From: Agrococcus sp. Marseille-Q4369
GTDB lineage: Bacteria > Actinomycetota > Actinomycetes > Actinomycetales > Microbacteriaceae
Direction of reading: 5' to 3'
Length of the DNA: 64,000 bases
NCBI RefSeq assembly: GCF_018308945.1
Contig: NZ_CP070501.1
Span: 1,302,001-1,366,000, forward strand
Positions 62,109 to 64,000 of this stretch are shown here, one piece after another. A program made the position numbers and the translations under genes. The notes below the pieces were generated by a model. That model ran no database searches. It had not been told where the DNA came from and saw only the letters and a list, made by a program, of their open reading frames with translations. The first letter of the stretch is position 1, and every line of letters begins with the position of its first letter.

Positions 62109-62671
62109 TGCGACACCCGCTTCGGGCCTGCCGACGGCACGGCGTCGGCCTCGCGGAGGTAGAGCGCCTCGGTGACCTCGGCCGCGCCGCGTGCGGCGGC
62201 GCGCGCGAGCAGTCCCGCGTCGATCGCCTCGGCGTCCACGCGCGGGAGCGCCGCGTGCTCTCCCGCGAGCGCGGGGACGGCGTCGGCGGGCGCGAGGTGC
62301 GGACCGTCGACGACGGCGCCGCCCGCGACGACGCTCCACGCGCGCTCGCGACGGCGCACGTCGGTCGTGACCTGCGCGTCGCCCGTCGTCGCGCCGAGGT
62401 GGCTCGCGACCCCGAGGCAGCGCACGCCGAGCCCCATGGCCGTCGCGCGGGCGGCGGCGATGCCGACCCGCAGCCCCGTGAACGCGCCGGGCCCCATACC
62501 CGCGACGACGAGCTGGATCGCGCCCCTCCGCCCCTCGAGCGCGCGCTCGAGCATGGGCCCGAGCCGCTCCGCGTGCCCGCGCCGGTCGTCGGAGCGCTCC
62601 TGGAAGACGAGCTCGTCGCCGTCGAGCACCGCGACCGCGGTGCCGAGCGAGGTGTCGATCGCGAGGATCAT
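62105..62671 (-). CDS. tsaB: TsaB, t6A biosynthesis complex dimerisation subunit
   Basis: 188 residues, slightly short of the common 200-230. [15 protein letters not shown] (actin-like fold start), [13 protein letters not shown] and [28 protein letters not shown] are the TsaB signatures. Paralogue and partner of TsaD without its own catalytic metals. ATG overlaps the tsaE stop by 4 bp. Confidence 0.95.
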
Positions 62672-64000
62672 CGCGCCGCTCCCTCGAGCGCGAGCGCGCG
62701 CAGCCGCGCGGCGTCCCACGCCGGGCCGTGACCGCTCAGCCGCACGCGCCGCGGCGCATCCGCCTCGTCGTCCATGTCGTCCTCCCCTGGGCCGGCCTCC
62801 GGCCGCTCGATCTCGACCCGCAGCCACGAGTCGAGCGCGTGCTCGAGGGGCGCGCCCCACTCCGCGACCGTGATCGCGCCGTCGAGGTCGAGGTCGAGGT
62901 CGTCGAGCTGGGCCTCGCTGCCCGTGTCGGCGCCGAGCCGGTAGGCGTCGACGTGCTGGAGGTCGGGCCCGGCGGCGGTGCGGTGCGTGCGGGCGATGAC
63001 GAAGGTGGGGCTCTGCACCGTGCCGCGCGCGCCGAGCGCTCGGCCGATGCCGCGCGTGAGCGTCGTCTTGCCCGCCCCGAGCGGCCCGATGAGCAGCACC
63101 GCGTCGCCCGCCACGAGGCTCCGCCCGATGCGCTCGCCGAGCAGCTCCATCGCGTCGGCGTCGGGCACGTCGCCCGCGAGCTCGACCGCGACGCGCGGGC
63201 CGAGCATGCCGGTGAGCTCGGGCGCGGATGCGTGCTCGAGCGAGACCGCGTCGCCGACGGCCGCGAGGCGGTCGCCGATGTCGAGCACCACCTGGTCCAT
63301 CGCGACGCGCCCGCGGATGGGCTCCGCGCCACCGCGGAGCTGCACGGGCCGGCCGGTCGCGGCGCGCGTGACGCCGTCGGCGTAGCCCAGCCCGACGAGC
63401 GCGAGCGTCGTCGACCGCTCGGTCACGTGCTCGCCGCCGTACGAGACGCCGAGGCCGGCCTCGACGCGCTTGACGCCGACGAGCTCCCCGAGGAGCCGCC
63501 GCGGCGTCCCGTCGAGCCCGAGCTCGAGCGCTCGCCGCGGCGCGAGCGCGGGATCCGCGGCCGTGCCGTGCGCGCCGAGGGCGAGCGAACCCATCCGCGT
63601 CACGACCTCGTACGAGATGGTGCCGGCCGCGACCGCCCACGCATCGGCGCTCGGCTCGCCCGCCGCGGGGTCGCCGAAGAGCACGCCCTCGCCCGAGAGC
63701 GGCGGTTCGATGCGGAGCGCGCCGGCGGTGACCTCCGCGACGCGCGCGGCCTGGTCGCCCACCTGCACCGGGGCGCCGATCGCGGGCAGCAGGCCCGCAT
63801 CGAGGCCACCTTCCGCGACGCCGCCCTGGAACGTCGCGGTCACGCGCATCGCGGGACGGAGGCCGAGCGCCGCCGCAGCCGCGCCGCCACCATCGCCGGG
63901 GCCAGCCGGATCGACGCCGTAGGCGGCCATGCCGAGGCGCACCATGTCGAAGCGCGCCTCGGGCAGGGCGAGCGCGGCCGCCGAGGCCGCGAGGTGCCGC
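62668..64000 (-). CDS. Alanine racemase-TsaE fusion (5' end outside window), with rearranged Alr C-terminal domain
   Basis: 443 residues visible, entering from the right edge in the end of the Alr barrel (HLAASAAALALPEARFDMVRLGMAAYGVDPAG). Numbering from Met at 63945, the next blocks are PAMRVTA (31-37), an unfamiliar stretch (38-86), VLFGDPAAGEPSADAWAV with GTISYEVVTRMG (88-119), then VKRVEAGLGVSYGGEH (158-173, catalytic Tyr) and GRVAMDQVVLDIGD (212-225). In normal Alr, GTISYEVVTR comes after MDQ, so blocks are out of order. From about 255 TsaE follows: IGPLGAGKTTLTRG (286-299), SPTFV, VDAYRLG, AEWG; this ATPase supports t6A synthesis. No stop separates the parts. First visible gene of the t6A operon. 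Confidence 0.88.
   Translation of the reverse strand, partial: RHLAASAAALALPEARFDMVRLGMAAYGVDPAGPGDGGGAAAAALGLRPAMRVTATFQGGVAEGGLDAGLLPAIGAPVQVGDQAARVAEVTAGALRIEPPLSGEGVLFGDPAAGEPSADAWAVAAGTISYEVVTRMGSLALGAHGTAADPALAPRRALELGLDGTPRRLLGELVGVKRVEAGLGVSYGGEHVTERSTTLALVGLGYADGVTRAATGRPVQLRGGAEPIRGRVAMDQVVLDIGDRLAAVGDAVSLEHASAPELTGMLGPRVAVELAGDVPDADAMELLGERIGRSLVAGDAVLLIGPLGAGKTTLTRGIGRALGARGTVQSPTFVIARTHRTAAGPDLQHVDAYRLGADTGSEAQLDDLDLDLDGAITVAEWGAPLEHALDSWLRVEIERPEAGPGEDDMDDEADAPRRVRLSGHGPAWDAARLRALALEGAAR

Follow-up and report, generated by a model that had tools for sequence, protein, structure and literature searches.

The window, by which we mean the whole stretch of 64,000 nt that was analyzed (G000:C1:1302001-1366000), is part of a 2.74 Mb genome on a single contig. 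Its last part carries, on the minus strand, a gene that joins alanine racemase (Alr) to TsaE, and the reading frame runs beyond the end of the window. The complete open reading frame comprises 680 codons starting from GTG. The likely start codon, an ATG at codon 55, overlaps the stop codon of acpS and gives a protein of 626 residues; on the scale of the window the gene starts at about 64548, which is outside the window. The gene order at the locus is glmS, acpS, the racemase-TsaE fusion, tsaB, rimI, and tsaD, and each of the five neighbors of the fusion scored above its NCBIfam equivalog cut-off.

The encoded chain consists of an Alr barrel, two complete Alr C-terminal domains in tandem, designated C' and C'', and TsaE. 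Pfam placed Ala_racemase_N at 59-268 and TsaE at 516-636 of the fusion. A preliminary description of this DNA had raised the question of whether Ala_racemase_C would match twice, and Pfam gave two stretches for this model, the best at 408-491. The NCBIfam model TIGR00492 (alr) also matched in two stretches and scored 210.3 bits on the whole fusion (cut-off 168). The TsaE part reached 92.2 bits with PF02367 (cut-off 26.6) and 63.9 bits with TIGR00150 (cut-off 60.1), and the P-loop GPLGAGKTT is present. The features are as follows, read from the barrel to TsaE; classes are defined below.

63841..64000, minus strand: C-terminal end of the Alr TIM barrel (N domain), which continues outside the window to about 64548
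Outside the window: PLP lysine (K39 equivalent), in the barrel part of the fusion
63595..63840, minus strand: C', first Alr C-terminal domain, from alignment and model; fold complete, Tyr265 loop and MDQ absent, GTISYEV kept
63610..63612, minus strand: codon of the Tyr354 equivalent (SYEV) in C', invariant in 10 of 10 aligned class II fusions
63520..63594, minus strand: linker between C' and C'', low-confidence, with pLDDT <50 at model residues 322-330
63178..63519, minus strand: C'', second Alr C-terminal domain; equivalents of Tyr265, Tyr284, Arg290, and MDQ (Met312) kept, Tyr354 block lost
63439..63441, minus strand: codon of the Tyr265-equivalent catalytic tyrosine (VSYG) in C'', from alignment
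63298..63300, minus strand: codon of the Met312-equivalent methionine (MDQ) in C'', from alignment
62668..63177, minus strand: TsaE domain with the P-loop GPLGAGKTT and the stop codon, the sole PF02367 match of the genome

We confirmed that one open frame (62668-64000 within the window) links the end of the barrel, the GTISYEV block, the VSYG...MDQ block, and TsaE, as had been noted before. The reversed order of the C-terminal blocks, with 63684-63589 ahead of 63474-63292, is also real. Normal Alr proteins of the same family show the opposite order: the N domain is followed by the Tyr265/MDQ block and then by the Tyr354 block. The order along the fusion chain is reversed because two C domains are present. 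The barrel has all equivalents of K39, Y43, R136, H166, and R219. Compared to a whole Alr C domain, C' lacks about 24 residues with the Tyr265 loop and has MDQ replaced, and SYEV is intact. C'' has kept VSYG (Tyr265), GYADG (Tyr284), Arg290, and MDQ (Met312) and has lost Tyr354. Thus, Tyr265 and Met312 are absent from the C domain that directly follows the barrel and are found in the second one. An alignment of 10 class II fusions, taken from three genera, shows no variation at any of these positions: in the barrel the PLP lysine, Tyr43, the arginine and histidine of the R136 and H166 type, and Arg219; in C' Tyr354; and in C'' Tyr265, Tyr284, Arg290, and MDQ.

The residue numbers used here are those of a solved Alr (PMC3245724) and were transferred by motif and alignment. 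According to the accessible part of that report, each active site is built from the N domain of one monomer and the C domain of the other; the first monomer supplies Lys39, Tyr43, Ser204, Ile222, and Tyr354, and the second one Tyr265', Tyr284', Arg290', and Met312' (PMC3245724). Since the latter residues are donated by the partner chain in Alr homodimers, C'' looks like the remnant of a partner subunit. C' and C'' have thus retained different parts of a single site, the cis residue and the trans residues, respectively; what either domain has lost belongs to the mirror site. This division had been overlooked in the preliminary description, which had proposed tandem Alr C domains with one of them degenerate. 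The tandem arrangement holds, except that the alignment showed a complementary degeneration of both domains, which appear to be derived from two subunits. An ordinary insertion within a single Ala_racemase_C domain was rejected because C' and C'' each align over the whole domain. Relatives with the same block order, which the preliminary description had coupled to such an insertion, do exist; the insertion within one continuous Ala_racemase_C match does not.

We compared the locus in 24 genomes of the same genus. The fusion with all four blocks in the reversed order was present in one frame in 15 of them, including the genome of the window. Six genomes had A and B-TsaE as two overlapping genes, where A stands for the barrel with a C domain of the C' type and B for the C'' type. 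One genome (G017) showed the same order with a frameshift in the barrel part (L045:6704-7403), which is either a real lesion or a sequencing error. The remaining two were not informative, as G010 (65% complete) gave no match and the gene of G020 is cut at a contig end. Four congeners (L044:5174-6334, L054, L055, L056) have an extra Alr-like gene elsewhere, with VGY instead of VSY in the Tyr265 motif and His at the position of Tyr354.

Outside the genus, 66 loci were collected through A-like or t2-like matches from 150 genomes of the family and from the search that had also covered the genus, with t1 and t2 denoting the first and second copy of a complete tandem Alr. The genus itself added its six split loci, for a total of 72 classified loci. 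They contain 47 A genes, 46 B genes, 3 fusions, and 35 complete Alr genes. K39, Y43, R136, H166, and R219 were kept in 47/47 A genes, and M312 in 1/47. The B genes kept Y265, R290, and M312 in 46/46 cases and K39 in none of the 46. The hmmalign tables have a Y in the Tyr265 column for 2 of the 47 A genes (G003, G016), where the local sequence is LAYGYRHG; MAFFT sets this stretch at the Tyr284 motif, and the two cases were therefore treated as misalignment. When the genes of g106 found later are included, 51 A genes were found across the family, 50 of them with an adjacent B.

Two arrangements of A and B were distinguished. Class I, with B followed by A on one strand, was found in 25 genera plus the genus g106. 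In 38 of the 39 class I loci, B is the gene directly upstream of A, and the 39th (G168) meets a contig end. In g106 all four A genes have an adjacent B and the same residue pattern, a count that leaves out two short matches (G264, G151). No TsaE match was found in the 39 class I stretches. A canonical alr is present elsewhere in the genome in G029, G024, and G031, all of class I. In class II (g1, g42, g94, g98), the order is A before B, either as separate genes or as a fusion, and B follows A in 8/8 two-gene loci. The tsaE gene is a separate neighboring frame in g42, g94, and g98 and is fused to B in g1. A barrel remnant of B is present in g98, lies inside the fusion in g42 and g94, and has disappeared from g1. 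Many B genes of other genera have a barrel or barrel remnant from which the lysine is lost; the B part of the window has no barrel. Several B proteins (L033, L173, L174, L175, L176) have lost most of the barrel and often keep its first part with ADAYGHG or a close variant, and in those that keep this segment the PLP lysine before it is replaced.

Complete Alr genes stand in tandem pairs at a further 13 loci, and each of the 13 stretches also gave a TsaE match. At the position of Tyr354 the t2 copy has Asp or Glu in all 13 loci, and the t1 copy has Tyr in 11 and Trp in 2. In four of these loci, from two genera (G030, G135, G080, G154), t2 and TsaE are in one frame. They represent a second kind of Alr-TsaE fusion, made with a t2 that has Asp for Tyr354 (L046:4455-7010, L111:2219-5077, L112:2166-5093, L113:3662-5581).

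As a control we analyzed 80 named loci from public genomes with 84 Alr-like ORFs. The choice of these loci was not random, as it relied on patterns around the PLP lysine or around MDQ; such patterns would still catch A and B. Complete genes accounted for 73 of the ORFs, one was cut at a contig end, and eight differed at Tyr354, one of those also at Arg309. A metagenome bin of Micrococcales supplied the remaining two ORFs, which form a class I pair. K39, Y265, and M312 were kept in 82/82 ORFs outside that pair. The best 30 loci from a search of 198 genomes of the order contained four A genes, all from the same family, and the A/B type was not found in the 17 loci of other families in this set. 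His at the position of Tyr354 in an otherwise complete Alr was seen in L223, L238, L243, and L248, from four actinobacterial genera (Streptosporangium, Planobispora, Nonomuraea, Herbidospora), and in L262 from a distant bin.

Phylogenetic trees were calculated for the barrel and for the C domain; to limit their size, both include only about half of the class I rows. In the barrel (N) tree, class I A and t2 formed one group with a support of 98 (quick tree). Class II A and four barrel-bearing class I B were placed on the side of canonical alr. These four were the only long-barrel B rows used, three of them on very long branches, and when all four were dropped the support was 97.9. In the C-domain tree, B of g98 grouped with ten t2 of the Asp type at 100/99, and the three t2 of the Glu type were placed elsewhere. 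B of the window lineage grouped with other fast B domains and not with t2, on long branches and with few columns. From these groupings, the catalytic copy appears to be t2 in class I and t1 in g98. This would indicate that the catalytic and the helper role fell in opposite ways in the two lineages. The AU test rejected neither a single origin of class II A (p 0.58) nor a tree in which class II A was joined with class I A and t2 (p 0.46). Class II A could have one origin or several, and because the latter tree was not rejected, the opposite polarity rests mainly on g98.

AlphaFold2 models had a pTM of 0.87 for N-C'-C'' and of 0.82 for the full chain with TsaE, and C' and C'' each had their own strands. 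Alignments A3 and A4 were used as folding input; A2, with low identities and free B domains apparently set on C', was left out. Among the best 50 Foldseek matches, some Alr chains, mostly actinobacterial, aligned over 343-377 columns with an rmsd of 2.7-3.6, which we read as N and C' in the normal cis arrangement. Other Alr chains among these 50 aligned over 453-495 columns with an rmsd of 16.2-17.6. We read these as C'' being matched by sequence and lying away from the cis position of the C domain. By this indirect reading, C'' would be docked at the trans site.

Selection was estimated separately for the parts of the gene. For the window gene and its two nearest relatives, the dN/dS ranges were 0.11-0.23 (barrel), 0.12-0.22 (C''), 0.16-0.20 (TsaE), and 0.20-0.66 (C'). 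In two pairs that are more distant, the barrel, C'', and TsaE had values of 0.28-0.38, C' of 0.42-0.57, and the linker of 0.40-1.06. The barrel and C'' are under purifying selection, and C' evolves faster.

A genome-wide search for another Alr C domain gave none; the fusion carries the only recognizable one. The genome has four other PF01168 matches, none of which was identified as an Alr: YggS (136 bits, cut-off 106), LysA (407 bits, cut-off 298), an aldolase-like protein with BhcC as its sole model match (136 bits, cut-off 690), and one further protein, which had no NCBIfam match at 1e-8 and was read as deaminase/aldolase-like. None of the genome's three class IV aminotransferase matches reached the cut-off of a D-amino-acid transaminase model; two of the proteins showed weak matches to such models (51 and 45 bits against 320; 37 against 277). 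One of the three is IlvE (498 bits, cut-off 307), one is aminodeoxychorismate-lyase-like, just under the cut-off (261.5 against 278), and the third, without an NCBIfam match, adjoins a gene read as PabB-like. The genome gave a strong match to the C domain of D-Ala-D-Ala ligase, which suggests a need for D-Ala.

The peptidoglycan of this family is unusual and contains a D-diamino acid. In class I A and in t2 the position of Tyr354 is occupied by Asp or Glu. A gyrB/parE-like gene adjoined the class I pair in 4/4 loci scanned for neighbors, and a murT-like gene, under the cut-off, was present in G031. B/A pairs with Asp or Glu at this position and a gyrB/parE-like neighbor lie at L033:7161-8959, L034:6679-8396, and L035:6716-9093 and in similar loci. 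Class I pairs are candidates for a racemase of an amino acid other than alanine, and we can only guess that this might be a diamino acid of the cell wall. In the accessible text on the racemases Lyr and Bar, the equivalent of Tyr354 is described as helping to define alanine specificity and as absent from these two enzymes (PMC3485190). The fusion of the window has kept this tyrosine like alanine-specific enzymes, and alanine is its probable substrate.

We consider it quite likely that the fusion represents an obligate hetero- or pseudo-dimeric Alr, with one paralog acting as a helper that donates the partner half of the active site. A tandem duplication of Alr would have led to an asymmetric alanine racemase. 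Paralog A (barrel and C') would have kept the PLP lysine, the barrel residues, and Tyr354, and paralog B (C'') would have lost the barrel and Tyr354 and kept the partner-donated Tyr265, Tyr284, Arg290, and Met312. C'' would dock at the position of the C-terminal domain of the partner and complete one active site on A, and the mirror-image second site would have decayed. In the window lineage A, B, and TsaE would later have been joined in one chain. This mechanism is well supported by sequence, and enzyme activity is predicted from it. Racemase activity with an altered topology, as the preliminary description had held possible, is plausible.

The same residue logic would apply to a domain-swapped homodimer, in which the two chains exchange their C'' domains to complete each other's sites, giving two sites per dimer and not one per chain. 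The linker between C' and C'', modeled with low confidence, is perhaps flexible, and the monomer model is compatible with swapping. However, the single-chain model already packs C'' (pTM 0.87), and the partner is a separate small chain in the split congeners and in class I; exchange between two long chains is therefore not required. We regard the swap as possible but unlikely. It is improbable that the racemase part is decaying, with C' or C'' as a non-functional remnant and selection acting on TsaE only. Parts have been lost from both C domains, C' evolves faster, and the barrel of G017 has a frameshift, all of which would fit decay; yet 10/10 fusions, which span three genera, agree in their active-site residues, purifying selection acts on the barrel and C'', the genome yielded no second Alr, and the losses sort by active site in 47/47 A and 46/46 B genes.

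Mutants of Alr at Tyr265 show an altered reaction, e.g., retro-aldol cleavage, and loss of the Tyr265 motif is general in A. A without Tyr265 might thus have a new PLP-dependent activity of this kind, with C'' as its regulator. This is quite improbable, as B keeps exactly the residues of the partner site, which a regulator would not need, and the gene sits at the alr-tsaE locus as the only Alr found. Transposition of a segment within a single Alr C domain, which the preliminary description had put at about 100 residues, or the assembly error that it named as an alternative would explain the apparent block order and nothing else. The model contains two whole C domains with their own strands, the second domain is a separate gene in six congeners and in other genera, there often with barrel remnants, and all four blocks in this order and in one frame are common to many independent assemblies (15 of the 24 genomes above). 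We consider such an origin extremely improbable.

Returning to the asymmetric racemase with a donated partner half, a joint reading of all loci has, in our estimate, about an even chance of being correct. In this reading Alr would have shifted throughout the family from a symmetric homodimer with two sites to an asymmetric enzyme with one site. The shift would have gone in opposite directions in different lineages: in class I the t2-type barrel would be catalytic and the t1-type the helper, and in class II of g98 the t1-type barrel would be catalytic and the t2-type the helper. The end point would be a self-contained single-chain racemase tied to TsaE, and the class I pairs with Asp or Glu for Tyr354 would racemize another amino acid, possibly the D-diamino acid of peptidoglycan.

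Alr is normally essential and a target of antibacterial drugs, and its well-studied active site is shared between identical subunits. Living relatives appear to record the stages of a change in this arrangement: a complete tandem pair, a dead second barrel, a truncated barrel, no barrel, a fusion, and the fusion with TsaE. The series reads as a path from homodimer to heterodimer, pseudo-dimer, and multi-enzyme fusion. The fusion of the window stands as an anomaly and as the visible end of this series from homodimer to heterodimer to fusion. How a duplicated homodimer turns into an obligate heteromer becomes a testable question in this family. With annotation by name such proteins are probably labeled truncated or bifunctional, and the point is missed. 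Among the literature matches listed, which leave most subscription journals outside, there was no report of a heteromeric, split, pseudo-dimeric, or TsaE-fused Alr.

Like the homodimeric fold-type III Alr (TIGR00492; PF01168 and PF00842), the fusion has the barrel with the PLP lysine, both gating tyrosines, residues of the Arg219, His166, and Met312 type, and a genomic place by tsaE. Ordinary Alr has two sites and two identical chains, each with a single N and a single C domain, whereas the fusion splits the residues of one site over two C domains that differ from each other and has lost the second barrel. Separate alr and tsaE genes next to each other in the same family share the neighborhood of the fusion, but they are unfused and Alr is complete. 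As far as the accessible part of the report on the alr operon of M. tuberculosis goes, the same holds there (PMC5335608). In the t2-TsaE frames of G030, G135, G080, and G154 a paralog of Alr is likewise joined to TsaE at the same locus; unlike in the fusion, this paralog is complete, stands behind another complete Alr, and is changed only at Tyr354 (Asp). The Lyr and Bar racemases have the ordinary block order, and Tyr265 is present. They have the Alr fold and, in the accessible part of their description, no equivalent of Tyr354, like class I A and t2 and unlike the window protein, which retains this residue (PMC3485190). The trypanosomatid deoxyhypusine synthase can be likened to the fusion, since in the accessible text one copy reaches full activity only together with its dead paralog (PMC3663545). 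A paralog without its own catalytic residue is found here in many B genes of other genera, and by analogy the helper would be needed for activity. Deoxyhypusine synthase is another enzyme with another fold; in Alr the helper has shrunk to one domain, and in the window lineage it is fused to its partner and to TsaE.
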